A DNA stretch of 64,000 nt from a virus, in the IMG/VR virus record IMGVR_UViG_3300032242_001752, positions 24,563 through 88,562 of that record, one strand, 5' to 3'. Positions 11,388 through 57,119 of the stretch are shown here, one piece after another (position 1 is the first letter of the stretch; each line of letters begins with the position of its first letter). Below the pieces are notes generated by a model. That model saw only the letters and a list, made by a program, of their open reading frames with translations, ran no database searches and had not been told where the DNA came from. Position numbers and translations under genes: made by a program.

Positions 11388-12112
11388 GTCGCGTAGGTCA
11401 GTATTTTGGTATTTATAGAGGAGTAGTTGTTGCTACTAACGACCCTCTTAATAAAAATAGAGTCATGCTTAAGGTTCCACAGGTTTCGGGAGAAGAAGTC
11501 ACTAACTGGGCCTGGCCTATTATCGGCGCATCTGCAAATAAAAAAACACCGTACGGTTCTTGGATTAGCACAGCCACGCAAACAACTGCAGATAGTACTA
11601 TAAATAACATAATTGCTTTGGACACTGTAGAAGGAAGCTACGGCATAGATTTAATTAACCCTAGTACTACGACCCCGGCCACTTCTGCAATTAAGTTTAG
11701 CTATGCTGGCACGTACAATATTCAGATATCTGCTCAGTTATACACCACTATCGGTGGAAATGGTTTTTTAAACGCGGATATGTGGATGAGACAGAATGGT
11801 ATAGATGTGCCAAATTCTGTGGGTTCTATATCTGTCGGTTCTAAAAACCCTTATACAGTTGCTAGCTGGAATTACATAATAGATATTTCTGCTGGTGATA
11901 CTTTACAGTGGATTTGGCACGTAAATACCTCTACGTCCACCTCTTTGCTTGCCACCTCTGCACAAGCTGGTCCGCCTGCTCAACCTGAAACTCCTTCATT
12001 TACCGTGTCTGCTACGCATGTGAGTGGCTATTTACCTAGTCCTGGAAATCCTTGCTGGGTTATGTTTGAGGGCGGAAACCCTAATTTTCCACTATGGTTA
12101 GGAACATTCTAA
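11384..12112 (+). CDS. Baseplate spike protein: split OB fold with inserted jelly-roll-like domain
   Basis: 242 residues. Residues 1-50 (YFGIYRGVVVATNDPLNKNRVMLKVPQV..WAWP) and the end (YLPSPGNPCWVMFEGGNPNFPLWLGTF) together make the gp5/gpV OB fold. Between them about residues 65-205 look like a TNF/C1q-type beta sandwich: FSYAGTYNIQISAQL, then ADMWMRQNG, then AGDTLQWIWH. Such domains often bind ligands or trimerise. It sits at the tip of the hub and precedes gp25. The insertion is inferred from sequence pattern. Confidence 0.75.
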   Translation: MSRVGQYFGIYRGVVVATNDPLNKNRVMLKVPQVSGEEVTNWAWPIIGASANKKTPYGSWISTATQTTADSTINNIIALDTVEGSYGIDLINPSTTTPATSAIKFSYAGTYNIQISAQLYTTIGGNGFLNADMWMRQNGIDVPNSVGSISVGSKNPYTVASWNYIIDISAGDTLQWIWHVNTSTSTSLLATSAQAGPPAQPETPSFTVSATHVSGYLPSPGNPCWVMFEGGNPNFPLWLGTF

Positions 12113-23780: not shown

Positions 23781-25351
23781 GAACACTTCTTCCTTATCAG
23801 CCAGAGGCTGTAGATAAGATGACCGAACGCGGAAAAATGCTTGTTGCATACGATTTAGGATTAGGTAAAACAGTTCTAACTATTGCCGCAGTAGAAAAAC
23901 TTATGGATGACCAAAAGATTACTGAGCCAGGATTAATTATCTGTTTATCCAGCCTGAAGTATCAATGGGAATCATCTATTACAAAATTTACTAACGGCTC
24001 AAAAGCTATTGTAATTGATGGCTCACCTGAGCAAAGAAAAAAGCAATATGAAAGAGCTATGCGCTGGCGACTATCTGGAATTGACTATATCATCATGAAC
24101 TATGAGCAAGTAGTTAATGACTGGGCATATGTAAGTAAATTGCCTAGAGGTTTTATTGTGTTGGACGAAGCCACTGCAATTAAATCTTTTAAATCAAAAC
24201 GCGCTAAAGCAGTTAAGCGATTGGCTACTTGTGACTATCGATTTGCGCTTACAGGAACCCCTATCGAAAACGGTAAACCAGAAGAACTATTCAGCATCAT
24301 GCAGTTTGTAGATGACAGTGTTCTTGGTCGATTCGACAAGTTTGATATGACCTTTATCGTTCGTAATGGCTGGGGTGGAGTAGACCGCTATCGCAACTTA
24401 CCTACCTTACATGAGAGGATGAAAGAAGCATCTGTTCGTAAAGCACAAAAAGACCCAGATGTAGCACCTTTCTTGCCCGCCACTATTCACAAAGACCCTG
24501 TATACGTAACTATGGACAGAAAGACATCTAAACTATATAAACGTATTTCAGATGATTTACTTATGGACCTAGATAATGCTCAAACACTATTTGGTAGTTC
24601 ATTTAATATAATGTCGCATTATGGGTTTGAAAAATCATGGGGAGGCCCTGCAGACGAGCTCCGGGGACAAGTTATGTCTAAAATAGGCGCTCTAAAAATG
24701 CTGACATGCTCCCCAGATTTGCTAAAAACAAGTGCTAAAAAGTTCAGGGACGGCAATGGTGAAGGGTCTGCTTATGCGGATATTTTAGATCAAGAGGGTT
24801 TACTAGACAGTATGCCAAATACAAAACTAGATTCCTTTATCGCCTATGCCAAAGATTTCCTAGAGCAAGATGAAAAAAATAAGCTAGTTGTATTTTGCTC
24901 TTATGTAGATATGGTTGATATAATTGCAGATAGGATTGGCCGAGACATTAGCGTTACTTATACCGGTCAACTAGATGCTAAGACTAAGGAGAATCATAAA
25001 AATGCGCTTAACAATGACCCTAATATTCGTGTGTTCATTAGTTCTGATGCCGGCGGTTATGGCGTTGACCTTCCGGCTGCGAACATGCTCATTAACTATG
25101 ATTTACCTTGGTCTTCTGGTCTGGCTACTCAGCGTAACGGGCGCATTCGTAGAGCTTCTTCTGAGTGGAAAACCATAGTTATTCAAGACTTTTTAGTTTC
25201 TGGCTCAGTAGAAGTTAGGCAATACGCAGCTCTTCAACAAAAAAATGCAGTAGCTTCGGCCGTTATTGATGGCGAAGGAATTAATGATAAAGGAGGGGTG
25301 GACTTTACCATCGGAACTCTTCGCGGGTTCTTATTGGATACGTCTGTATAA
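23768..25351 (+). CDS. SNF2-family DNA helicase / translocase
   Basis: 527 residues. Motif I DLGLGKT (29-35), motif II LDEAT (132-136), motif III ALTGTPIENG, and motif VI QRNGRIRRASS. Motif V region ISSDAGGYGVDLPAANMLINYDLPW. Typical of SNF2-type translocases in phages, which remodel forks or promote branch migration like T4 UvsW. It follows the primase with 13 bases overlap. Confidence 0.88.
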   Translation: MGFVGTLLPYQPEAVDKMTERGKMLVAYDLGLGKTVLTIAAVEKLMDDQKITEPGLIICLSSLKYQWESSITKFTNGSKAIVIDGSPEQRKKQYERAMRWRLSGIDYIIMNYEQVVNDWAYVSKLPRGFIVLDEATAIKSFKSKRAKAVKRLATCDYRFALTGTPIENGKPEELFSIMQFVDDSVLGRFDKFDMTFIVRNGWGGVDRYRNLPTLHERMKEASVRKAQKDPDVAPFLPATIHKDPVYVTMDRKTSKLYKRISDDLLMDLDNAQTLFGSSFNIMSHYGFEKSWGGPADELRGQVMSKIGALKMLTCSPDLLKTSAKKFRDGNGEGSAYADILDQEGLLDSMPNTKLDSFIAYAKDFLEQDEKNKLVVFCSYVDMVDIIADRIGRDISVTYTGQLDAKTKENHKNALNNDPNIRVFISSDAGGYGVDLPAANMLINYDLPWSSGLATQRNGRIRRASSEWKTIVIQDFLVSGSVEVRQYAALQQKNAVASAVIDGEGINDKGGVDFTIGTLRGFLLDTSV

Positions 25352-25949: not shown

Positions 25950-26342
25950 CTAGGCTGTTGGTGGAGTTTCTTCTGCAGGTTCTTCTGCAGGAGCATCTAC
26001 ATGGTCTTCTAGTTCAGACAAGTCACCAAAGTCAGATAGCTGAGGTGTTTCAGCTGCTGATTCTTCAAGCGCCTTTTTGATTTCAGGGTCATTAGCCGAC
26101 TGCTTTGCGACAGCCGCACGGAATCCTTTTTCAATGTCTTCGTCAGAGATGCTAGCATCCCAAGCAAGTTGAACACCAAAATAAATGATGATAGAAGCAA
26201 ATACGGTCATAACACCGTTTATAGCTCCTAGAAGTGGGCCAATACCGCTAGCGGAACCTGTGGCCATACCCGGAATAGCTGCAAAGAAAATTACACCTAC
26301 TGAACGGACAATTAAATTCTTTAATTTATTTAGCAATTGCAA
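25950..26342 (-). CDS. Holin-like membrane protein with acidic tail
   Basis: 130 residues. Two hydrophobic segments at about 10-32 (IVRSVGVIFFAAIPGMATG) and 36-60 (LLGAINGVMTVFASIIIYFGVQLAW), then a strongly acidic Glu/Pro/Ala tail. Two membrane helices and position after the endolysin gene fit a holin. The long acidic tail is unusual but holins often carry charged ends. Overlaps the endolysin gene by 17 bases. Confidence 0.7.
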   Translation of the reverse strand: MQLLNKLKNLIVRSVGVIFFAAIPGMATGSASGIGPLLGAINGVMTVFASIIIYFGVQLAWDASISDEDIEKGFRAAVAKQSANDPEIKKALEESAAETPQLSDFGDLSELEDHVDAPAEEPAEETPPTA

Positions 26343-26877
26343 TCTCCTGTTTACAAGTTGGGCAAACCTTTACGTCTGCGTGAACGGGTGCAGCGACTGG
26401 TGCAGCGGGAGCAGCAGGTGCAACAGCTGGCTTTGCAGCCTTCTGTTTTGCAATCTGGCCTTTAATGTAATCGTGAGCGTTAAATACTTTACCGCCAAAC
26501 ACGCCTTCTACAGTTGTGCTTAGAGTAAAGTGAAGGTGGCAACCAAAGCTCGCTGAGCCTGTGTTACCTGCTTTACCAACTACGTCTCCTGACTTCACGA
26601 CTGTTCCAACCGGTAGCGGCGATGGTTCATTCATGTGGCAGTAACCAAAGTAGTGATTATTGTCGGTTTTTAGTACAACAACGTTACCAAGAACGGTGCT
26701 TTGTGCTAGAGGTCTGTTAAGTACGATTGTTCCATCGTTTACAGCGAGCAAAGGCTCGCCAACTGCAAAACCGTTATAGTCGGTTCCACGGTGACCAGGA
26801 GCTTTGTGCCACTGGTCTACTGCGCCAAATAGTGATCCGAGTTTGACCTTCTTTACTGGGAAAATCCAGTTACCCAT
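26326..26877 (-). CDS. M23 metallopeptidase endolysin
   Basis: 183 residues from ATG 26877, with AAAGGA eight bases upstream; a GTG at 26910 lacks one. M23 core: HRGTDYNGF (H29, D33), YFGYCHMNEP and CHLHFTLS (HxH). After the catalytic part comes an Ala/Pro linker and a C-terminal CPTCKQE zinc knuckle. No signal peptide, so release needs the neighbouring holin. Probably cleaves peptide bridges of the host wall. Confidence 0.82.
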   Translation of the reverse strand: MGNWIFPVKKVKLGSLFGAVDQWHKAPGHRGTDYNGFAVGEPLLAVNDGTIVLNRPLAQSTVLGNVVVLKTDNNHYFGYCHMNEPSPLPVGTVVKSGDVVGKAGNTGSASFGCHLHFTLSTTVEGVFGGKVFNAHDYIKGQIAKQKAAKPAVAPAAPAAPVAAPVHADVKVCPTCKQEIAIAK

Positions 26878-26925
26878 AGTGGGATTCCTTTCGAAGGGTT
26901 GGAGGGACACTTCTATTGTCGCTTA

Positions 26926-27087
26926 TTAATCCCTATTTCGCAGTGGATACGTGGCTATCCAGATGACTAGCGAGCCGATAATACACCAGCCAACTACGAC
27001 TTTAGCAGACCCTTCTAGGACTACCCAGGCCACAAACATGCCCAAAAGCGTCCATAATTGGCCTAGGAGGTCATTTAAGAACTTCAT
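26926..27087 (-). CDS. 53-residue membrane protein, second holin candidate
   Basis: ATG at 27087 has GAAGGA upstream. Two hydrophobic segments, LWTLLGMFVAWVVLEG and VVVGWCIIGSLVIWIATYP, flank a short basic turn, and the end is RNRD. Size and topology are those of small class II holins. It lies directly upstream of the endolysin gene in the same leftward operon. Overlaps the preceding frame by four bases. Confidence 0.65.
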   Translation of the reverse strand: MKFLNDLLGQLWTLLGMFVAWVVLEGSAKVVVGWCIIGSLVIWIATYPLRNRD

Positions 27088-27377
27088 TTAACTTTCCTTC
27101 GATTAGAACCAGATGAGCCGGAAGACGCGCCTCCAGCGGCATTAGCTGCGGCACTAGCAGCGCTTTGAGCTGCCATTAGCCCGGCTTGGGTTGCTACTTG
27201 CGTAACGATAATTGCCGAAATAACCACCTTCTGTGCCTTTTTACGGACAGCAGGTGGCAAATCAGCACCGATGTTGTTCAAAGCATTGGCAACATCAGTA
27301 AACCCTTGAAATACTGCCCCCAGTACCGGAACTGCTGCAATAGGGTTATTATTGCTATAGTCCTTTGGGGGTATTAT
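27084..27377 (-). CDS. -1 frameshift extension of the PA14 protein: C-terminal membrane anchor
   Basis: The frame is open from the slippery site (27377) to the stop at 27084, 97 residues, with no ATG or GTG near a ribosome binding site; a TTG at 27281 is internal. It starts IIPPKDYSNNNPIAAVPVLGA, contains a predicted membrane helix (KVVISAIIVTQVATQAGLMA), an Ala/Gly/Ser region and a basic end NRRKVK. This looks like a surface-protein anchor. Read through the frameshift it would extend the PA14 protein to about 584 residues. Independent initiation at TTG 27281 cannot be excluded. Confidence 0.6.
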   Translation of the reverse strand: MIPPKDYSNNNPIAAVPVLGAVFQGFTDVANALNNIGADLPPAVRKKAQKVVISAIIVTQVATQAGLMAAQSAASAAANAAGGASSGSSGSNRRKVK

Positions 27378-27383
27378 TTTAAA
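27317..27383 (-). promoter_or_regulatory. Probable programmed -1 frameshift signal
   Basis: In the leftward sense: slippery heptamer T TTA AAA (27383-27377), in frame with the upstream gene and directly before its TAA; a five-base spacer; then CCCCCA (27371-27366), which pairs with TGGGGG (27322-27317) to close a long-loop stem, with ATA/TAT pairs beyond a small bulge. Heptamer, phase, spacing and structure all fit canonical -1 frameshifting. Confidence 0.7.
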
Positions 27384-28837
27384 ACTAAAACAAACTGCTG
27401 TCTAGAAAGGTACGCACCGTCAGCGTAATATTTAGGATTACTTTTCTTTGGCCGTCTTTTGTCAGCGGCAGTTGGTTTAGGAATATTTGCTAAGTCAATC
27501 TTGGCCTGAGCAAGTTGCGCCTCTAAACTGTCTACCTTTTGAGCGGCATTGTCAATTCCAGAGAAAGTAACGCTGTATTGATTCTTTAAGTCCCTTAAAT
27601 TAGCATCGGCTACTGCTTTAGTATCACTACTAGTTTGCCAAGTATTTTCCGCAGATTGTACGTCTGAATTCTTTTGGTTTAAAACAGCCCGTTTTCCGGA
27701 TAACGTGGCACCGGCATATCCATAAGCAGTTACCTTACCGTCATAGGCATCGCAAGCATTTTGGTAAACAACATTTGCCTGCTCTTCAGCAGCCACTGCT
27801 TGAACATAATCGTTTGTCTTTTGGTCCAAGATAGTCTTTAGGGCTGGGTCTTTAACCATAGTTACTACTGCATCTTGGGTAAAGAAGGATGCTGGAGCTA
27901 CTGCATAAGCGCTACCATTTAAAGGCTTGTAGTTCAAGGTAGAACAAGCACCACCAGTCCACTCGTAGAACCAAGCATCTACAGCGTAAGATTTACCACC
28001 AGTAAAGCTAAACAGGCCAGTTGAGTTTGCTCCACAGCCTTTTAGTGACCAGTCATTGATTACCTGAGTACCGTTGATAGACATGTAGAAACCGTCATCA
28101 GCAGGGGCCTGGAAGTAAACTTTAGTGGTAGTTGGATATGTAATGTAACCACGGTAGTGAAGCATAATGTAATCAGAGCCACAGCCAAGAATATCTCCAT
28201 TACCCCAGTTAGCGTTAATCTGCGTAACTGTAGTTGTCTTACACTTTGTGTAGGCAGTATCTGACTTCTGTGGGGGATTACCGTTACGGCTAATTCCTGT
28301 ATAGACATCTACTTTCAAACCAGGTGTACTACCAGAACCGCCAGCGTTAATCAACTTAGTGTCGTAATCATTTTGTGCTTGGTTCATGGCTGCCTGAGCA
28401 TTATCGCTATTTTGCTGGGCGGTTACATAATTTGCGTATGTGCTATCTACAAGGTCACTAGCTGCATTGACTGCATCTACGGCTTTAGAAACAGCCGCTT
28501 CCGCAGCTTGCTCATCAGCAAATGCTGCATCGTAGCTTGCTCTTTTATCTGTGTAGTCAGCTTGAGCAGCGTCTAGGGCATCTTGCGCCTGAGTAACAGC
28601 TGTTTGGGCATCATTAATTTGATTTGCCTGGTCATTAGAAGAGTTAGTCCAGCTGTCTAATTCAGCTTGGGCGCTATTTAGCTGAGATTGTAAATCAGCA
28701 ATTTTAGCTTGGGCAGCTGCAACTTGATTATTGTAATCAGTGGTGCTGTCAGCAGAGGCAGGGCTTGATAAAAAGAATACGAACAGTAGTGCGAGAGGGG
28801 TTACGAATAGTGCTGCGAACTTACGCAGTCTAGACAC
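27374..28837 (-). CDS. Secreted PA14-domain surface protein with coiled coil
   Basis: 487 residues from GTG 28837, chosen because AAAAGGA lies just upstream; a TTG at 28852 does not have one. Signal peptide: SRLRKF then a long hydrophobic core ending SSPASA|D. Residues 30-160 are Ala/Gln/Asp-rich coiled coil. The middle (LKVDVYTG..TVTQINANWGNGDILGCGSDYIMLHYRGYI..TKVYFQAPADDGFYMSINGTQVINDW) is a PA14-type carbohydrate-binding domain with paired cysteines. A second coiled coil follows. First gene of the lysis operon; may act on the host surface, e.g. in adhesion, superinfection exclusion or release. The 3' end carries a frameshift signal. Confidence 0.75.
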   Translation of the reverse strand: MSRLRKFAALFVTPLALLFVFFLSSPASADSTTDYNNQVAAAQAKIADLQSQLNSAQAELDSWTNSSNDQANQINDAQTAVTQAQDALDAAQADYTDKRASYDAAFADEQAAEAAVSKAVDAVNAASDLVDSTYANYVTAQQNSDNAQAAMNQAQNDYDTKLINAGGSGSTPGLKVDVYTGISRNGNPPQKSDTAYTKCKTTTVTQINANWGNGDILGCGSDYIMLHYRGYITYPTTTKVYFQAPADDGFYMSINGTQVINDWSLKGCGANSTGLFSFTGGKSYAVDAWFYEWTGGACSTLNYKPLNGSAYAVAPASFFTQDAVVTMVKDPALKTILDQKTNDYVQAVAAEEQANVVYQNACDAYDGKVTAYGYAGATLSGKRAVLNQKNSDVQSAENTWQTSSDTKAVADANLRDLKNQYSVTFSGIDNAAQKVDSLEAQLAQAKIDLANIPKPTAADKRRPKKSNPKYYADGAYLSRQQFVLVLK

Positions 28838-28905
28838 TTGGTTCCTTTTCAAAAATAGGGGATAATTTATTGTCCCTCATAAGGGTGTATTTTTTCTGCT
28901 TAAAC

Positions 28906-28936
28906 TTGACAAAGCCCCTAAAACCTGTGCTATGGT
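28906..28936 (+). promoter_or_regulatory. Probable promoter for the NlpC/P60 gene
   Basis: TTGACA (28906-28911) with a 19-base spacer to TATGGT (28931-28936), which is preceded by TG as an extended -10. The gap 28838-29014 separates divergent operons, so a leftward promoter must also be here, but I see no convincing one. Confidence 0.55.
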
Positions 28937-29014
28937 TTTACCCATAACTGAATATAGTGTCACTTCGACAATAAACGACCCCAGCACTAAAGCAATGAAA
29001 GGTAAGGTCGCCAA

Positions 29015-29539
29015 ATGAAAAAGTACGTAATAATCGCCAGCGTAATGTTAACTCTCGCTGGTTGTTCTGCTTCTGCAGCAACTGCTGTAGTTACAGATTT
29101 ACAAAAAACAAATACACAGGTTTCACATGTGTCTTTTAACCAAGCTTTAACATCTAAAGCTAATGGTAAAAAAATGATTCGCACTGTGAACTACCTAATA
29201 TCACGCGTAGGAAGAACCTCTTACGTATTCTCAGGAGAAACCCCATATGGTTGGGATTGCTCCGGTATGGTCCGTTGGACATACAAACAATTTGGTATCA
29301 CGCTCCCTCACTCTGCTAATAAACAGGGTCATTTGGGAGCCCGTGTAAACAAACCTAAAATAGGCGACATAGTTGTTTTTGCCTATAAGGGACGCACGGA
29401 TTTCTACCACGCCGCCATCTACATTGGTAAAGGCAAAGTAATCAACGCTAACTACGGCTCAGGCACCACTATAATCGAGCCATTATCGGACTACAAAGGT
29501 AGCGAAATTCGGTTTATCCGAGTGTTACCTACGATATAA
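29015..29539 (+). CDS. NlpC/P60 cell-wall peptidase, predicted lipoprotein
   Basis: 174 residues. Signal sequence MKKYVIIASVML with lipobox LAGC (Cys17), so it is probably lipid-anchored outside the membrane. The NlpC/P60 core has the catalytic cysteine in WDCSGMVRW, LPHSANKQ, and the catalytic histidine in FYHAAIYIGKGKVINA. It cleaves peptide stems in peptidoglycan. Independently transcribed and divergent from the lysis cassette, it may help lysis or remodel the wall. Upstream a 7-codon frame (28994-29017) overlaps its start. Confidence 0.85.
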   Translation: MKKYVIIASVMLTLAGCSASAATAVVTDLQKTNTQVSHVSFNQALTSKANGKKMIRTVNYLISRVGRTSYVFSGETPYGWDCSGMVRWTYKQFGITLPHSANKQGHLGARVNKPKIGDIVVFAYKGRTDFYHAAIYIGKGKVINANYGSGTTIIEPLSDYKGSEIRFIRVLPTI

Positions 29540-48709: not shown

Positions 48710-49165
48710 TTGGCAATTGTTTTATTCATGGATGGCGTATTGCGGTCTGACTCTAAAGTCCCTATTTATGAGGGTATTTCTCTATATAAATCTTTAAATG
48801 TAAATGGTACTGTAATGCTTGCGTGCGCTGACCAGGACGAAGCTGCGCGTTGGTGTAAGGAACATAAACTTACAGATATAGACGGATTTATCTCTAATAA
48901 GACTGTTGGGGAATATGAGGACAAAGACTTTCTCAAGATTAAACACCAGCAAGCTTCCGGCCCGCTGCATCTGGTCGTAGTAGCAGACATAGAATTAGCA
49001 AAAACCTGTTTACAAAATGGTATAAAGACATTACTTTGGTTACATCCAGTATATTTAAGCCCTAAATTTAGGCCAGATGGAAGAGTAGGCCGCAAGAGTT
49101 GGGATGACCTTGTAGGCGAACTAGACAGACAAGTAGAACTAATGGCAGAGGATAACCGACTATGA
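48710..49165 (+). CDS. HAD-like phosphatase-fold protein
   Basis: 151 residues from TTG 48710, with AAGGA upstream. LFMDGVLRSD fits HAD motif I with D8 (the second Asp replaced, so catalysis is uncertain), ACADQDEAARW motif II-like, and VVVADIELAKTCLQNGIKTL a motif IV-like region. Possibly a nucleotide-binding but inactive HAD protein. Overlaps the next gene by four bases. Confidence 0.6.
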   Translation: MAIVLFMDGVLRSDSKVPIYEGISLYKSLNVNGTVMLACADQDEAARWCKEHKLTDIDGFISNKTVGEYEDKDFLKIKHQQASGPLHLVVVADIELAKTCLQNGIKTLLWLHPVYLSPKFRPDGRVGRKSWDDLVGELDRQVELMAEDNRL

Positions 49166-50607
49166 ATATCGTATATTTAGGGGCAGAAGTTCCTAGCAAC
49201 AGAAGCATTCTTGACCACTCAAACGCTAAAAAGGTTGGGGTAAGTTACTGGGGCGTTGTTCGTAGAGGACTACCTAAGACAAAGAAGTATTTACTAGAAA
49301 ACTATTTTAAAGACGATGTAGAACTCTATGTTTTCCCTGGGATACCTGCTTCTACCACGCTTACAGAAGAAGAATTATTGGATTTTTCGGCCGATTATGA
49401 GGAATTTATTGCCGATAATTTACACCGAATTACCCTATTTTCGGAAATAAACCACCCTTCAGCCAGCCAAGAGTTCGTCGTACAGCAACGGGTAGCTGCT
49501 TGGAACGAAGTAGATGATGATAAGTTCGGTGTCGTCTATACATCAGGAAGCCTAGAGGACTTAGCAACTAGATATTTAAATATCTTTATTTCTGGAGATG
49601 TCGCTGAGGCATTGGAGCCTATTTGTAGAAAGTTCTCCTCTCAACATGGAACTAAGTTCCATATCTTAGGCTCTATCAAGCCTGATAAGTTCCGTAACTC
49701 CCCTTTTGAGACAACCAGCACTCTCGCTTGGCTTTCGCCTATGATGAGGGGCGAAACTATTGTATGGTTCGGTAATCAACTACACCGATACCCTAAGCGT
49801 ATGAAAGAACAGGCTCGCTCTCGTTACAAGGCTGCTTACGAGGCTGCTAACTTAGACTTTGATAAAATACTTGCCGATGACGCTGTGGAAATCTCTAAAT
49901 TGGCTGTATGGTCTTACCAACAGTTAGAACTTTGGGCAAATAACTCCTCTCATATATCAGATACAAGTGACTCAAACTTACCTGCCAATTTCTCTCAAAC
50001 ACCCCCCTCTAATGCTGATATATCAGGTACGGAATCAAACAAACTTATCACAAGAAATCCTGCTGAAATTCGCCCTCTCCCTGTGCTTGGAGTGGAAGTT
50101 TCTAGGGTAATTGAACAAGATGAAACTGGTCGTGATGTAATCAAAGAGGTTCCAGTTATTCGCTCTAACAGCACCAGTTTAAGACAATGTAACACTTGTT
50201 TTGTAAAGGATAACTGTCCTGCTTTTAAGCCTGATAACGCTTGTGCGTTTAACCTGCCAGTAGAGGTAAAAACCAAGGAACAACTTAAGGGCTTAATCAA
50301 CTCTCTCCTTGAAATACAAGGGCAACGAGTGGCATTTGCCAAGTTTGCCGAGGACTTAAATGGTGGATACCCTGACCCAAATACAGGCCTAGAAATGGAT
50401 AGATTCTTTAAAATGTTAAAAACAATTAAGGAATTAGACGAGAGCAAAGAAATTATGAGAGTGACTATGGAACGTGGAAGTTCTGCTGGAGTTCTCTCAA
50501 GTTTATTCGGTGAAAGGGCTCAAAAATTGACCGAATTGCCTAACAATGGCCTCAATGAAGAACAGACAAACGAGATAATTAAGAAGATAAATCCAACCGA
50601 TATATAG
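49162..50607 (+). CDS. Large two-domain protein with C-terminal cysteine cluster
   Basis: 481 residues. N-terminal 240 residues look alpha/beta (NIVYLGAEVPSN, then KVGVSYWGVVRRGLP) with a TSGSLEDLATRY segment. A Ser/Asn-rich linker (about 255-300) follows. The C-terminal domain has CNTCFVKDNCPAFKPDNAC, likely a zinc or iron-sulphur site, and long helices. It ends the rightward gene block. A DNA-packaging or tRNA-modifying role can be imagined but nothing in the sequence proves it. Confidence 0.55.
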   Translation: MNIVYLGAEVPSNRSILDHSNAKKVGVSYWGVVRRGLPKTKKYLLENYFKDDVELYVFPGIPASTTLTEEELLDFSADYEEFIADNLHRITLFSEINHPSASQEFVVQQRVAAWNEVDDDKFGVVYTSGSLEDLATRYLNIFISGDVAEALEPICRKFSSQHGTKFHILGSIKPDKFRNSPFETTSTLAWLSPMMRGETIVWFGNQLHRYPKRMKEQARSRYKAAYEAANLDFDKILADDAVEISKLAVWSYQQLELWANNSSHISDTSDSNLPANFSQTPPSNADISGTESNKLITRNPAEIRPLPVLGVEVSRVIEQDETGRDVIKEVPVIRSNSTSLRQCNTCFVKDNCPAFKPDNACAFNLPVEVKTKEQLKGLINSLLEIQGQRVAFAKFAEDLNGGYPDPNTGLEMDRFFKMLKTIKELDESKEIMRVTMERGSSAGVLSSLFGERAQKLTELPNNGLNEEQTNEIIKKINPTDI

Positions 50608-50656
50608 TTGATATATGTGCCTATTTTTAGCGTCAATGGCACTTCCCAGAAAATCG

Positions 50657-50668
50657 CCAACTCAACAA
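50657..50668. repeat. Solitary copy of the 12-mer CCAACTCAACAA
   Basis: Exact copy of the 12-mer that flanks the long palindromes at 57591-64000, here without partner arm. It lies in the 250-base gap between the convergent rightward and leftward gene blocks; the rest of the gap (50608-50813) shows no gene. Confidence 0.8.
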
Positions 50669-50813
50669 CAATGACGGCTGCGTAAAACGATCCGGAAGTC
50701 CAACGCACAGACTAAAAACCGTATAATTTATTGCTATTATCCATTTGTTTAATTCCCTTTTAGAAAAAATCTCTCTCTATTATTTCGCTCAGCTCATCAG
50801 AACTTCCAGGCAA

Positions 50814-50841
50814 AGAAAAAAGCCCCTATTGCTAGGGGCTT
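50814..50841 (-). terminator. Terminator of the leftward operon (works in both directions)
   Basis: AAGCCCCTA-TTGC-TAGGGGCTT with a perfect 9-bp stem, followed in the leftward sense by TTTTTTCTTTG. In the rightward sense only TTAAAT follows, so it mainly serves the leftward genes. Confidence 0.85.
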
Positions 50842-50855
50842 AAATCTCTCTCTCT

Positions 50856-51341
50856 TTATCTCAATAGGGCATACGCCATATTTATAGCGAAGGATAATAG
50901 GATATACGGACCTAGGGGAACAGTCTTGTATCTATTTATTACAATAACGCCCAGATTATCCAGCAACAGTAGAAAGCCAATGCCTACGATTACCAGTAGA
51001 AACAGGGTGGCTGGAAACATAAGACCTGCCATAGCCGAGAACCAGCCAACGATTAGGGTCAGGGCTGTTGCGTATTTAACATCGCCCATGCCTACATAGT
51101 CTATAAAGTTTAGGCATAGCCCTAGGATAAAGACACCGAAAGCCAGTGCGAAAGCCAGCCCCAGTTCTGCCCACTTGCCCTGCCATATTGCTAGGGTCAG
51201 CCAAGACGCTAGGGTCAGTAGGATTAGAGGCGCGACTATTTTATTAGGTAGCCTTTGCTCTTTGAGGTCTATGACTATGAGGGGAATCGCTGTTACTACC
51301 ACATAAATTACAGGTAATAGGCTTATTATTTGAGTTATCAT
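50856..51341 (-). CDS. Type IV prepilin peptidase-like membrane protease (A24)
   Basis: 161 residues with several hydrophobic helices. The two catalytic aspartates lie in VIDLKEQRLPNKIV (D25) and YVGMGDVKYATAL (GxGD, D87), the exact signature of A24 prepilin peptidases. No N-terminal methylase domain, as in archaeal-type or Tad-type short enzymes. It would cleave prepilin leader peptides. Last gene of the long leftward operon; unusual in a phage. Confidence 0.88.
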   Translation of the reverse strand: MITQIISLLPVIYVVVTAIPLIVIDLKEQRLPNKIVAPLILLTLASWLTLAIWQGKWAELGLAFALAFGVFILGLCLNFIDYVGMGDVKYATALTLIVGWFSAMAGLMFPATLFLLVIVGIGFLLLLDNLGVIVINRYKTVPLGPYILLSFAINMAYALLR

Positions 51342-51448: not shown

Positions 51449-51688
51449 TTAGTAATCTTCATCTCTCTCTGGCATATTATCTAAATAGTCCTGTCGGTGT
51501 TCGCCCTCGCTGGCTTGCTCTGCGTAGTAATAGCCAGCACCCTCGCACTCGGGGCAAGTAACTCCGTCTAACTCTCCTAGCGTGTCGCACTCTTTACAGC
51601 CACGCCAGCATAGCGAGCAATAGTCCTCTGAACAGTCACGCTCGGGGTCTGTGTAAGGACCCTCTAGCCATGCGTCATAACTACTCAT
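51449..51688 (-). CDS. Small DnaJ-like zinc finger protein
   Basis: 79 residues from ATG 51688 with AGAGGAAACAAATG context. CSEDYCSLCWRGCKECDTLG and CPECEGAGYYY give repeated CxxC pairs like the DnaJ cysteine-rich domain. Acidic elsewhere. Function unknown. Confidence 0.65.
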   Translation of the reverse strand: MSSYDAWLEGPYTDPERDCSEDYCSLCWRGCKECDTLGELDGVTCPECEGAGYYYAEQASEGEHRQDYLDNMPERDEDY

Positions 51689-51869
51689 TTGTTTCCTCTC
51701 CCTCAATGTCTATAACATCTACATCTTGACTAAATAGGGTTACTGCGTCTATCTCAACGCCCTCTGACCACCATTTCTTTTGCGATAGGTCTAGGACTTC
51801 GCCCCAGTCCTCTCCCTCTTTGGTAGTAATCTCCCAGATTTGTCTTACCTCAACTGTATATTTAGGCAT
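51681..51869 (-). CDS. Small acidic protein
   Basis: 62 residues from ATG 51869, which overlaps the upstream stop; GAGAGGAAA precedes. Predicted beta strands then acidic tail (DVDVIDIEGEETNE). No family recognised. Confidence 0.55.
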   Translation of the reverse strand: MPKYTVEVRQIWEITTKEGEDWGEVLDLSQKKWWSEGVEIDAVTLFSQDVDVIDIEGEETNE

Positions 51870-52192
51870 TAGTTTTCCTCTCTTAACTGGTGGCAACTGT
51901 CGCATAATCCGTCATTACCAGCCCTCTCTAAACTAGATAAAGGCTCGTCACAGTCCTCGCACATGAACTCTCTCATATGTTCATAGACTTCATCACTTAT
52001 AACCTCGCTGACTTCGCTGAACAGGTCATAGCCCTCTAATATCGTAACAACCTTGCCAAACACTTCTGGCGTAGGGCTAGGCGTTCCGTCAGCGAACTCC
52101 AAAGTTTCGGCAAGCCAATAGGCACATATAATAGGCTGGTCTTGGTTCTCAATAGCCGAAAGTTGTTCTACAACATCTTTAACTGTAATCAT
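51869..52192 (-). CDS. Small protein with C-terminal zinc finger
   Basis: 107 residues. Helical, acidic N-terminal part and FMCEDCDEPLSSLERAGND, then LCDSCHQL, forming a four-cysteine finger. No family recognised. Confidence 0.6.
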   Translation of the reverse strand: MITVKDVVEQLSAIENQDQPIICAYWLAETLEFADGTPSPTPEVFGKVVTILEGYDLFSEVSEVISDEVYEHMREFMCEDCDEPLSSLERAGNDGLCDSCHQLREEN

Positions 52193-52428
52193 TATCTATC
52201 TCCATTTATGATGTCTAGTTCCTCTTGCGTAAAGATTTCTCTCTCGCTTTCCTCTAAATCTACAACCTCTACTAGACTTACCCAACCCTGATTTATAAAG
52301 TTATGCTGGTTGTTCTTAATAAACTTATGTAGTTCAGCCATAAAGTTTTCGGCTGTATCGGTTGCGTCATCTAAATCGGTAGCGTCAGTTTCTACTGTTA
52401 TCGCTATCTCTATTTCGTATTTAGCCAT
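52192..52428 (-). CDS. Small acidic protein
   Basis: 78 residues from ATG 52428 (context GAGAATCAAATG). Beta strand YEIEIAITVETDATDLDDAT and helix, ferredoxin-like in pattern, acidic throughout. No family recognised. Confidence 0.6.
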   Translation of the reverse strand: MAKYEIEIAITVETDATDLDDATDTAENFMAELHKFIKNNQHNFINQGWVSLVEVVDLEESEREIFTQEELDIINGDR

Positions 52429-52663
52429 TTGATTCTCTTTCACTCTCGTAATCGCTTTCCCAGTAGGTCAAGTCCTCGCCAGCCAAAATAGCCTGAACAT
52501 ACTCATACTTATCGCTATCGGCTAGGCAGTCAAGCACGAACCAATGGAACCTACTAAGTTTATTAGGGTCAAACAGGATAATACCACCCTCGCCATACGA
52601 GCCGTCAGCAGTTACCCAACCTGCGTAATAATTATCTTGCCAGTTGTCTTTTCCCATAGCCAT
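52421..52663 (-). CDS. Small unknown protein
   Basis: 80 residues. WQDNYYAGWVTADGSYGEGGIILF and HWFVLDCLADSDKYEYVQAI; many aromatic and acidic residues. No family recognised. Overlaps both neighbours. Confidence 0.55.
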   Translation of the reverse strand: MAMGKDNWQDNYYAGWVTADGSYGEGGIILFDPNKLSRFHWFVLDCLADSDKYEYVQAILAGEDLTYWESDYESERESNG

Positions 52664-52905
52664 TAGTTACGCCACTCCTCGCCAATAACTTTCATTAGAG
52701 CATTAGGGCTTACCTTTAGAACAGAGCATAGGGCAGACATAGTGCCACTAGGAATCTCTCGCTGTAAGTGAAAGTATCTTGATAGGCTTGATTTCTGGAA
52801 TCCAGTAGCGTTAGCAAACTGATTAAGCGACTTGTATCCAAGTTTTTTATAGCGTGCTACGAACCATACCCAAGCAATATCGGCTTGCTTTTTAGTTTTT
52901 ACCAT
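52663..52905 (-). CDS. Cro/C1-type helix-turn-helix protein
   Basis: 80 residues, ATG 52905 with GGAGAAACAAATG. HTH: KSLNQFANATGFQKSSLSRYF, followed by SALCSVLKVSPNALMKVI, a XRE-type domain. Similar in layout to the protein at 57783-58127 (shared LGYKSL / IGYKSL and KVxPNxLM/LLF ends), so they are likely paralogues. A candidate repressor of the leftward units. Confidence 0.75.
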   Translation of the reverse strand: MVKTKKQADIAWVWFVARYKKLGYKSLNQFANATGFQKSSLSRYFHLQREIPSGTMSALCSVLKVSPNALMKVIGEEWRN

Positions 52906-53092
52906 TTGTTTCTCCTGTTTTCTTATTTGTAATGGTGACTTCTACATTTACTTCATAGAATCTCTCAACCAGTTCCCTTGCTGTTTCCCAAGTTCCTAGG
53001 TCAATGTAGGTTCCGTTGTGTAGTTCAGCCAGTTCGTCAGCCAAGCGTTCAGCCAACTCCCCTAGCGTTAGGTGCTTTACATATTTAGCCAT
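52892..53092 (-). CDS. Small unknown protein
   Basis: 66 residues, helical with GELAERLADELAELHNGT; context GGAAATCAAATG at the start. No family recognised. Confidence 0.55.
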   Translation of the reverse strand: MAKYVKHLTLGELAERLADELAELHNGTYIDLGTWETARELVERFYEVNVEVTITNKKTGETNGKN

Positions 53093-53465
53093 TTGATTTC
53101 CTTATTTCCTCAATTAAGTCAGGGTCACCAAACTCCTTGATGAACTCCTCAACTGTATAAACTCCACCACGATAAGCGACCATGCCTGTATCAAGACCGA
53201 CTACGATAGGTGGATTATCGTCAGAATTGCTTAGGCTGTCCACAGAGCCAATACCAAAGCCAGTAGAGCCTTTATAGCCCCCCTGAACGATAGCGAACTC
53301 ATAGAACAGTTGTGCTGTTAGATACATAGGGTCGTTCAGCCTATCGGTCATGCTAAGAACATTTACTACTGCCGACAGGTTATCCTCACCTGCCCAATGT
53401 CCGTAAAGATGTATCGGGCTTGTTAAGCCCTCGCTTGTAATGTAGATAGAACTTCTATCGCCCAT
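53085..53465 (-). CDS. Unknown phage protein starting MGDRSSIYI
   Basis: 126 residues, alpha/beta, with YGHWAGEDNLSAVVNVL and a glycine-rich GGYKGSTGFGIGS. Proteins starting MGDRxxI are known in phages and plasmids but without function. Overlaps neighbours on both sides. Confidence 0.6.
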   Translation of the reverse strand: MGDRSSIYITSEGLTSPIHLYGHWAGEDNLSAVVNVLSMTDRLNDPMYLTAQLFYEFAIVQGGYKGSTGFGIGSVDSLSNSDDNPPIVVGLDTGMVAYRGGVYTVEEFIKEFGDPDLIEEIRKSNG

Positions 53466-53601
53466 TTTTCTTGCCTTTCTTGTTGCGTTGGTTTTTAGGT
53501 GCGGGTTCAGTTGTGAAATGTAGCCAGATAAATCCTATGGCTAGGGATAGCAAGTATACACCCACTACCCCTGCCACAGCAAGACACGCTATCTGATTCA
53601 T
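53455..53601 (-). CDS. 48-residue membrane protein
   Basis: One hydrophobic helix (CLAVAGVVGVYLLSLAIGFIW) and a basic C-terminal tail KNQRNKKGKKNGR. Start three bases after the VWA gene stop. Function unknown. Confidence 0.5.
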   Translation of the reverse strand: MNQIACLAVAGVVGVYLLSLAIGFIWLHFTTEPAPKNQRNKKGKKNGR

Positions 53602-53604
53602 AGT

Positions 53605-55755
53605 CTAGTGCTTATCCAAAGTGGTCTTGATAACGCCCTTGACCACGCCTTTAGCGACCTTGACTAAATCATCAGGGTCGGTAACCATTTGGAACAGGTC
53701 TGCCCCATGAGCCATACGAGTAAAGTAATCCTCGCCATAGTAGGTAGCCCAGTAGTAGTTAGGGTCGCTTGTATCTGTAATAGGATTATTAGCATATTCG
53801 TTTATGTGCCTTAGCGTGTGTTCATCAGCGATATAAACGACAACAACATAACAGCCTTGTTCTTGTAATCTAGCGATTACTTTTTCGCACTTGTCGGTGT
53901 TAGAGAACTCCCCGTCTGTAAGGATAAATACTAATTTGGTATTAGCATTTGATAATTCCATAATCCTATTTGTTTCTACCAAAGCAGAATAAGGGTCGGT
54001 GCCACCAGTAGTATCAGGAATACGAACCACATTTGCCTTAGCCTTTTCATCTCGGCTAGATAGGGTCTTGCCGATATCACTAAAGGTTAGCAACGATACT
54101 TTTCCGTCAATTTTCTCAATAGCACGCTTAATAATCCAGCCAGAACGACTAGCAGAACCGATTTGGCTATACATAGAACCAGACCTATCAACAAGAACAC
54201 TAGCCTCAATTTGATAATCGTCAGAACCCTCACGCCACCTATCAAACAGTTTATTTATGTCGTTGATATCAGCGTTCATGGCACGCTTAACATTTAACTT
54301 GCCACTAGGCACCTGTCTAATCCAAGCAGGGTCACACTCAATTCTCAAGCGTTCTAGTTCACTAGCAAAACGCCTAGCAGTATTGACTTCCTTAATAGTA
54401 GGCTCGTCAGAACTAGCACGACCTTTAGGCAGAATAGACTTAACACTTCTATCCTTGATAATAGCGTTCATGGTGTCCTTGACCTTTTTAGTCAGACCCT
54501 TATCAGCCTTGGCTCGTTCTACTTCAGCCTTAATAAGTTCAGTTAGTTCATCAGAGATGATATTAAAGTCAGACTTATCAGGCTTGTTATCACTATCCTC
54601 GGTTTCACCAGTATTGCCTTTACCAGCCTTGCCCTTGGTATCATCATCAGATTCAGGGCTTTTGCCACTAAAATCTAAATCAGCCTTATCACCTTTATCG
54701 CCACTAAGTCCGTCTTGTTCTTTCTCACCGACAGGTCTGCCATTTTTTAGAGGGTCACGACCAGAGCAAGACCAGCCTTGACAGGTAGAGCCATAGTTCT
54801 CGGGTAGCATTTCGGCTAGTTGGTTGATTAGTTCTATGCCCCTATCGTATTGGCGAGGATAGACCAGACTTCTATATTCATTTACGATATTAAATATAGT
54901 TTTAGTCTTTTCTGCCCCATATTTAGCCATATGAGCATTTGCCGATAGTTGTCTAACCTCTTGTGAGAAATACCTACGACCAGCCAGCAGAACAAAGTTG
55001 TCGGCAAGGTTAATAGGATTATCAAGCAAGTATTCGCCTACTGTCGCAATAAGGAAAGGTCTAACGCTTGGATATTTAGCAACGAGCATAGTTTCAGCAC
55101 GATTATCCTCAAGCATATTAAATGCTATTTTCCTATTTGGATATTCGGTAATAACATCTCGTTCCCATACCCACTCGTCAGGAGTTCCAGCGTTCATAAC
55201 TTCTTTAGTGACTGTATGTTTCTGTTCCATGACCCACTTACCAAGTTTATTATTTGCTCTTGGTGTGTATAGCAGGTGAGATAGTTCGTGATAGTTCAGA
55301 CCATTAAAGGTAAGCACCAGTTTTTCATCTAATAGGTTTATTAACTTAGCGTTAAAGGTAATGTCCTTACCATTACTGTAAGCAGGTGTATCACCAGTTT
55401 CAGTAAATAAGACATTTACGCCTAGACCAGTCAAAATCCTATCGGCACGCTGGAATATGCTCGCCATGCTGTCTATGGTGTTATTACGCTGTAATAGGGC
55501 TTGCGTAATCTTTTCACCATTTTCATCTAGCCAGTCACGATATTCCTTGCGTAAATCGTTGTCGGCTCGCATACGACCTTTCCACAAGTTATCCTCGTCT
55601 ACACCAGAGGTCTTGGCTATGTGCTGGACTTCTGCCCAGTTATAACTAGCCAGTTTTACTTTTTCAGTATCTACATGGTCGTTTAGGAACATTTGGTAGG
55701 CACCCCAGTAGTTATCCTCTAGGCTCATAATCCTAGTCATTTGTGGCTTGCTCAT
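53605..55755 (-). CDS. VWA-domain protein with HExxH motif (CobT/ViaA-like partner of the AAA+ gene)
   Basis: 716 residues, RBS GAGGAG. A helical N-terminal part contains LNYHELSHLLYTP, a HExxH metallopeptidase-like motif near residue 155. An acidic/Gly/Lys linker (about 345-400) follows. The C-terminal VWA domain has the MIDAS motif ASVLVDRSGSMYS near 516, and later GGTDPYSAL and FILTDGEFSN. Such proteins pair with MoxR-type AAA+ ATPases (CobST, RavA-ViaA) to remodel or insert metal into targets. The partner gene lies directly upstream. Confidence 0.85.
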   Translation of the reverse strand: MSKPQMTRIMSLEDNYWGAYQMFLNDHVDTEKVKLASYNWAEVQHIAKTSGVDEDNLWKGRMRADNDLRKEYRDWLDENGEKITQALLQRNNTIDSMASIFQRADRILTGLGVNVLFTETGDTPAYSNGKDITFNAKLINLLDEKLVLTFNGLNYHELSHLLYTPRANNKLGKWVMEQKHTVTKEVMNAGTPDEWVWERDVITEYPNRKIAFNMLEDNRAETMLVAKYPSVRPFLIATVGEYLLDNPINLADNFVLLAGRRYFSQEVRQLSANAHMAKYGAEKTKTIFNIVNEYRSLVYPRQYDRGIELINQLAEMLPENYGSTCQGWSCSGRDPLKNGRPVGEKEQDGLSGDKGDKADLDFSGKSPESDDDTKGKAGKGNTGETEDSDNKPDKSDFNIISDELTELIKAEVERAKADKGLTKKVKDTMNAIIKDRSVKSILPKGRASSDEPTIKEVNTARRFASELERLRIECDPAWIRQVPSGKLNVKRAMNADINDINKLFDRWREGSDDYQIEASVLVDRSGSMYSQIGSASRSGWIIKRAIEKIDGKVSLLTFSDIGKTLSSRDEKAKANVVRIPDTTGGTDPYSALVETNRIMELSNANTKLVFILTDGEFSNTDKCEKVIARLQEQGCYVVVVYIADEHTLRHINEYANNPITDTSDPNYYWATYYGEDYFTRMAHGADLFQMVTDPDDLVKVAKGVVKGVIKTTLDKH

Positions 55756-55757
55756 AG

Positions 55758-57119
55758 TTACTCCTCGTCACTTTCCTTGGCGACCTTGATAGTGATTCCA
55801 AAGTCTTTAGCAATACCGACCTTAGCAGTTGAGAACACCAGTTCAACAGCCTCTCGTTCATCATCAGAGAATCCGTTGATATAGGTTCCGATAGCGTAGT
55901 CCAAGCCTACATTAGAAATGTTCTTGGTAAGCATTTCTAGCCCTCGGGTAGATACAGGTGTTTCTATCTCGCCCTTGTCGTAGGTATCTCTAAGTTTTTG
56001 AGCCACATCTAGCAACGCAACAGACTTGATAAGTTTTTTCTCAATAGCCTTATCATAAGCAAACTCCCACTTGTGAGCAAACCTGTCTTTCCATGCTTGG
56101 TTCATAGGGCGAGAGCCACGATACATAGGGTTATGGTCACCGATAATAACTAGGTCAGGGTGAGCCTTGATAACCTCGCCACCATTTTCTAGCAACTGGA
56201 TTTCTCGTCTATCGTCTAGCAAGCCAAACAAAACTGTTGTGATTCGTTCAGGGATAAAGTCAATTTCGTTCAGTAGTAGAACTCCACCATTTCTTACCAA
56301 GTCTGTTACAGGTCCGTCTTGCCACTTATACTTACCAGCAGTTTCAGTTGGAATCCATGACCCGAATAGGTGGCTAGGTTCCAAGCCCACATTGGCAGAA
56401 ATGTTGTAGTAGCGATAATCCCTAGAACTTGCCCAAGCAAGAACACACATGGTCTTACCAGAGCCAGCGTGACCACGAATCAAAAGGTTCTGGTTGTTCG
56501 CCTTGACAATGTCCAACATCTCAAAGTCAGTCATACCAGACTTGCCGACATTTTTTCGGTTGATATAGCGTTCAGCCCACTTCTTATCTGGCACGCTTGC
56601 CAGTTCAGACATAACAGGCTTGTTAGATACAGGCAGACCTAGGAAAGTCTGGTCAGGCTCGGCAGTCGCAACAGAGTTGATAGCGACAAAAGCAGGTGCC
56701 ATTTCCATAATAGGCTTGAGAGATACGCCAGACTTTCTGCGATTATCTCTAAGATACTGGTTCAGGGAATCATCACCAGCGATTAGTTTTGCCTTTAGGT
56801 CACCGACCATAATGTCGTGAGCCAAGCCCTCGGTGACTGGAATAGAACCAGCAGACATAAGACGACTTGCTAAGGCTGTTATGTTTCCTGTTTCTGCGAA
56901 CTGGATATCGCTGTCGCTAAGAACGACTGCGTTAGGTTCAGATGTGATAGGGGAAATCTCTAGGGCAGGGATAAGTTCTCTAACTTGCCATGCCTGACCA
57001 CGACCACGACCACCAGTAGATAGTCGGGTAAAGGTTAGAACTTCCGTTGCTGTTGGAACTAGAACTGTCTGGTAATTACCAGTAGTAGTAATGCTCTCTA
57101 CGAATAATGCGATACTCAT
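55758..57119 (-). CDS. MoxR/CobS-type AAA+ ATPase
   Basis: 453 residues. Walker A GHAGSGKT (216-223), Walker B GVLLLNEID (279-287), sensor 1 IIGDHNP and sensor 2 region STRGLEML. The 210-residue N-terminal extension is unusual and probably a binding domain. Two bases separate it from the VWA gene, so they form a pair. First gene of the longest leftward operon, preceded by a 470-base regulatory gap. Confidence 0.88.
   Translation of the reverse strand: MSIALFVESITTTGNYQTVLVPTATEVLTFTRLSTGGRGRGQAWQVRELIPALEISPITSEPNAVVLSDSDIQFAETGNITALASRLMSAGSIPVTEGLAHDIMVGDLKAKLIAGDDSLNQYLRDNRRKSGVSLKPIMEMAPAFVAINSVATAEPDQTFLGLPVSNKPVMSELASVPDKKWAERYINRKNVGKSGMTDFEMLDIVKANNQNLLIRGHAGSGKTMCVLAWASSRDYRYYNISANVGLEPSHLFGSWIPTETAGKYKWQDGPVTDLVRNGGVLLLNEIDFIPERITTVLFGLLDDRREIQLLENGGEVIKAHPDLVIIGDHNPMYRGSRPMNQAWKDRFAHKWEFAYDKAIEKKLIKSVALLDVAQKLRDTYDKGEIETPVSTRGLEMLTKNISNVGLDYAIGTYINGFSDDEREAVELVFSTAKVGIAKDFGITIKVAKESDEE

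Follow-up and report, generated by a model that had tools for sequence, protein, structure and literature searches.

A TadV-type prepilin peptidase gene carried by tailed phages that apparently lack pilus genes

Why would a tailed phage carry a gene for a prepilin peptidase? The question is raised by a window of 64,000 nucleotides (the whole stretch of DNA analyzed here, positions 24,563 to 88,562 of the 88,562-bp IMG/VR virus record IMGVR_UViG_3300032242_001752), in which an open reading frame (ORF) at positions 50856 to 51341 resembles the A24 (TadV-type) peptidases. Such enzymes normally trim the subunits (prepilins) of Tad pili. A sequence-only reading of the window had called the ORF a prepilin peptidase with both catalytic motifs intact, and had suggested that the enzyme might change host pili and so block superinfection or affect surface attachment.

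The ORF runs from an ATG to a stop codon on the minus strand and encodes 161 amino acids (aa). It matched the Pfam family PF01478 (Peptidase_A24) with an E value of 2e-10 and a score of 41.4 bits, against a curated cutoff of 26.5 bits, and it was the only A24 gene in the whole record. Both catalytic aspartates, D25 (in IDLKEQRLPN) and D87 (in GMGDVK), are present. The gene and its motifs lie as follows.

50856 to 51341, minus strand: A24 (TadV-type) prepilin peptidase, 161 aa, six predicted helices (PF01478, AlphaFold2, viral relatives).
51243 to 51269, minus strand: first aspartate motif, DLKEQRLPN (D25 to N33), with D25 and N33 invariant among 26 relatives.
51081 to 51092, minus strand: second aspartate motif, GMGD (D87), invariant among 26 relatives.
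50907 to 50918, minus strand: C-terminal PLGP motif, retained in the window peptidase (57 of 60 cellular and 12 of 20 phage sequences).

An AlphaFold2 model, for which the input alignment consisted of the window sequence and fetched relatives, had six helices, a mean predicted local distance difference test (pLDDT) score of 93.3, and no extra domain. The architecture is one of membrane helices with PF01478 as the sole domain, without an N-terminal methyltransferase domain. Searches of the PDB gave no significant match to the model with Foldseek and no match to the sequence; the top of a second structure comparison, at only Z 6.2, was presenilin, which is a GxGD protease too. Judged by its profile score and motifs, the ORF is a true A24 prepilin peptidase of the TadV type, as the sequence-only reading had it.

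Loss of the active residues in relatives, which the same reading had named as a refutation, was not what we found. Both catalytic aspartates were retained in all 20 phage sequences checked, and D25, N33, and GMGD were invariant in a 26-row alignment of phage proteins and their cellular relatives. Scores for PF01478 were over the cutoff in 19 of 19 peptidase-bearing phage records searched. Pairwise dN/dS (the ratio of nonsynonymous to synonymous substitution rates) among the peptidase relatives was 0.19 to 0.43, calculated from pairs that were neither saturated nor nearly identical; by this measure, the gene is under purifying selection in phages. The PLGP motif was less constant. It was lost in L015 to L018, L020, and L022, read PLGL in L126 and L127, and had a loose form (e.g., PLYP) in some of the 12 phage sequences that retain it; in addition, L015 and L016 had SN in place of PN at the first motif. 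Some of the phage enzymes have thus diverged at secondary motifs while keeping the catalytic residues.

The nearest cellular relatives found with a profile of the phage enzymes were in small-genome aquatic Microbacteriaceae (Rhodoluna, Aquiluna, and other Micrococcales). In a tree, the 20 phage rows formed a single clade (support 97/85) that was sister to the cellular sequences L188, L095, and L096, the joint group having support of 96/89; an earlier tree with 17 phage rows gave the same grouping (100/99). Comparison with host enzymes, which the sequence-only reading had proposed, thus placed one phage clade within the aquatic Microbacteriaceae. The G+C content was 43.6% for the phage record and 44.2% for the cellular contig of L095. 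The window contig also encodes a WhiB-like protein, a family that is typical of actinobacteria and their phages. The simplest story would be one capture from a small-genome aquatic Microbacteriaceae host, followed by inheritance and by transfer between phages with common hosts; the window phage would then presumably infect such a bacterium.

The phage profile led to 12 cellular genomes, each with a single A24 match, and in the small-genome aquatic Microbacteriaceae the peptidase gene was unlinked from the Tad pilus genes. The T2SSE pilus ATPase was matched over the cutoff in 15 of 15 cellular genomes searched, and TadE-like matches occurred at E 0.1 in 10 of 15, 8 of them over the cutoff. The Tad loci that we read in three genomes (G288, G001, and G002) held ATPase, TadB/C-like, and pilin genes, and the leaders of the pilins end in G before DVPGWVLV, SVTAEF, SAPIEF, NALLEG, or ASTAEY. 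In contrast, there was neither a TadE match nor a T2SSE match over the cutoff in the 15 phage records searched. A broader leader scan, which recovers the cellular Tad pilins, found none in the 88.5-kb phage record. Scanning the phage by the E5 rule gave three hits, versus one or two in shuffled controls, none of which was plausible; a looser G/A/S scan gave noise only, and six other peptidase-bearing phage contigs gave implausible hits. The search for class III leaders was thus negative throughout the record, which extends to all 88.5 kb the earlier remark that the window has no prepilin-like substrate. As far as can be seen, the peptidase is an orphan in the phage, without a pilin or other pilus gene. 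Because several phage records may be incomplete, this absence is not final.

In the window, the peptidase gene is the last of a minus-strand run headed by the AAA_5 ATPase and vWA genes, and a plus-strand block converges on this run.

55758 to 57119, minus strand: AAA_5 ATPase, 453 aa, first gene of the run and a conserved neighbor (PF07728, 66.5 bits).
53605 to 55755, minus strand: vWA-domain protein, 716 aa, a conserved neighbor (PF05762 and PF00092).
51449 to 53601, minus strand: small genes from the vWA gene to the peptidase gene (Cys-rich, 85 aa; HTH, 80 aa; others), ORFs of which several overlap, shared with relatives.
50820 to 50841, minus strand: terminator-like hairpin and T tail directly past the peptidase gene (pattern scan).
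49162 to 50607, plus strand: convergent 481-aa gene (g481) that ends the plus-strand block, a synteny anchor present in more than 80 viral contigs.

The run has the appearance of an operon. An HTH_3/HTH_26 domain was found among the small genes, and the hairpin region past the peptidase gene had a folding energy of −22.3 kcal/mol (z, −3.4). The 481-aa gene matches PHROG 887, "queuine tRNA-ribosyltransferase," and no Pfam family, and the name may not hold.

Scans of viral contigs gave peptidase relatives on 25 contigs besides the window's. In at least eight of these (L003, L015 to L020, and L022) the gene has the same position as in the window, closing the AAA-vWA run and convergent with the 481-aa gene or a ribonucleotide reductase (RNR)-like gene; close relatives retain the order AAA, vWA, small genes, and peptidase, followed by the RNR-like gene and/or the 481-aa gene. 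L002 likewise has this order, but the 481-aa gene is absent on its short contig. The RNR-like gene (677 to 696 aa, named by sequence resemblance only) lies between the 481-aa gene and the peptidase gene in most relatives, e.g., at 11595 to 13628 in L018; it is missing at 50607 to 50856 in the window phage and from the same place in L020. The peptidase is missing from more distant contigs of this phage group that cover the region (e.g., L028, L030 to L033, L051, and L055).

The gene is not confined to one kind of phage. Because it has tail sheath and baseplate wedge genes, the window contig is from a contractile-tailed phage. In contigs of 113 to 137 kb (L113, L114, and L117), the peptidase gene lies amid small genes at a different place in the genome, and in one genome of this type (G024) the terminase, portal, tape measure, and major tail genes follow a siphophage-like plan. 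L314 and L317 have yet other gene contexts around the peptidase. Two small genes of the window, the 80-aa HTH gene (52663 to 52905) and a 126-aa gene with an MGDRSS start (53085 to 53465), are common to the myophages and the 113- to 137-kb phages, with identities between phage types of 63% and about 50%, respectively (L113, L114, L117, and L126); neither was found in the peptidase-less relatives. These genes possibly belong to a host-specific gene pool common to different phages. An NlpC/P60 lipoprotein-like gene at 29015 to 29539 has look-alikes in two other peptidase-bearing phages (L113, 16157 to 16732; L114, 15017 to 15592) with an identical lipoprotein start and SRVGRTSYVFSG stretch. Next to it, the genes for an M23 peptidase, short holin-like membrane proteins, and a 492-aa protein with a signal-like N terminus, a coiled coil, and a PA14 domain lie in a minus-strand island (25950 to 29014) that interrupts the plus-strand block.

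Isolate phages and reference databases gave little. A single-sequence scan of genome contigs with the window peptidase had no match, nor did tblastn searches of the INPHARED phages with the window peptidase or the L002 protein. With the cellular L095 protein, tblastn against INPHARED hit two UNVERIFIED "Bacteriophage sp." fecal scaffolds, MT835706.1 (L305) and MT837871.1 (L304), both with A24 genes. The first has a bacterial Tad locus and is apparently mislabeled bacterial DNA; the second is a 6-kb fragment with a PilD-like ORF. PF01478 was absent from the related isolate phages Gordonia GMA6, Gordonia Gray, and Brevibacterium Cantare, and no isolate phage searched had a credible match to the peptidase. 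PHROGs and NCBIfam held no family matching the phage peptidases. The BFVD viral protein A0A5Q2W8A6 probably has a similar fold (E 0.03, probability 1.00) and may be a distant A24-like protein in another virus.

What, then, does the enzyme do? The explanation that we judge best, and hold with moderate confidence, is that a host-derived TadV-type peptidase acts on the infected cell's own Tad prepilins. Several lineages of tailed phages would have kept a gene that was acquired, probably in a single event, from a small-genome host among the aquatic Microbacteriaceae. The phage peptidase would sit in the membrane of the infected cell, cleave the class III leaders of the host Tad prepilins (Flp and TadE/F), and add to the host's single unlinked TadV, and the net effect would be that pilin maturation, and with it Tad pili or DNA uptake, continues during infection. 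Searches of the viruses gave neither a pilin nor any other pilus gene, so the pili of the infected cell are the most likely target; because the active site is intact, sustaining maturation is favored over blocking it. Host pili as the target, which the sequence-only reading had suggested, would still be the best reading, whether the enzyme supports piliation or blocks superinfection. Four points weigh against our explanation. The host already owns a peptidase, so the benefit of a second copy is doubtful. There was no TadE match in 5 of the 15 cellular genomes. The loss of PLGP (L015 to L018, L020, and L022) and the SN for PN may mean a changed substrate. Finally, the identity of the host, the expression and activity of the enzyme, its use of host prepilins as substrate, and its net effect on pilin maturation are inferred.

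Superinfection exclusion would require that processing of host prepilins at an abnormal time or rate, or competition with the host enzyme, cause functional Tad pili to be lost or altered, so that pilus-dependent phages are excluded. Phages do disable type IV pili, as is known for Pseudomonas phage proteins: D3112 Gp05 and Aqs1 do so via PilB (PMC11436027), and PfsE acts on PilC (PMC8764522). Tad pili are phage receptors in Caulobacter (PMC11067988). Like Gp05, Aqs1, and PfsE, the phage peptidase would be a phage product that targets a type IV filament system of the host. However, those factors bind and inhibit PilB or PilC, whereas the peptidase is an enzyme whose active site is intact, both catalytic motifs being kept in 20 of 20 phage sequences, and the use of Tad pili by these phages or their rivals remains conjecture. 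We consider exclusion rather unlikely.

It is unlikely, too, that the substrate is a non-pilin membrane protein of the phage or host, e.g., one involved in lysis or signaling. The lack of a phage pilin, the drift of secondary motifs in part of the clade, and the retention of the gene across very different genome settings would fit such a role, but all three motifs of its pilin-processing relatives persist in the window enzyme, and no peptidase-specific partner gene adjoins it in all contexts. A new substrate would be most plausible for the sublineage with drifted motifs. That the peptidase is a passenger, a captured host gene without a selected function, would agree with its absence from the more distant phages of the window phage's group, but this is very improbable given catalytic motifs kept across the clade and dN/dS of about 0.2 to 0.43. 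Contig chimerism, which the sequence-only reading had raised, or host contamination can be dismissed with near certainty, since the gene occurs on 25 further viral contigs, with synteny kept in at least eight of them, and the phage clade stands apart from the cellular sequences.

The closest parallel to the enzyme that we propose is TadV of Micrococcus luteus (Mlut_05160), whose gene is unlinked from the two tad loci and whose deletion abolishes surface Flp complexes (PMC4322843). Because tadV is unlinked from the tad loci, this arrangement resembles that in the cellular relatives of the phage enzyme. Both proteins are about 160 aa long, carry the two conserved aspartates, and consist solely of membrane helices, without an N-terminal methyltransferase domain, and both genes lie away from any tad locus. 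Unlike Mlut_05160, the phage enzymes are encoded on tailed phages without pilus genes, form their own clade, and have lost PLGP in part of it. A prepilin peptidase is also encoded by thaumarchaeal integrative-conjugative elements, another kind of mobile DNA (PMC6563490), but there it comes with the pilins and ATPases of a conjugation apparatus, whereas the phage peptidase is alone. In the literature searched, which took in few subscription papers and no preprints, no orphan prepilin peptidase had been described from a phage before. The enzyme family is known, as is the strategy of the host-derived phage gene; their combination is new among what was searched.

An orphan peptidase kept by several unrelated tailed phages would imply that these phages depend for their success on the maturation of pilins, or on a related cleavage at the membrane, in the infected cell. 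Tad pili of abundant freshwater bacteria thereby become a candidate target. Rhodoluna lacicola is naturally transformable and editable (PMC11577799). A more speculative extension, which we think quite unlikely, is that in streamlined lake actinobacteria the phage peptidase keeps the host's Tad pilus and competence running so that the infected cell continues to take up DNA as a source of nucleotides and phosphorus. If that were true, the peptidase gene would be a phage support gene that acts on a host surface machine.
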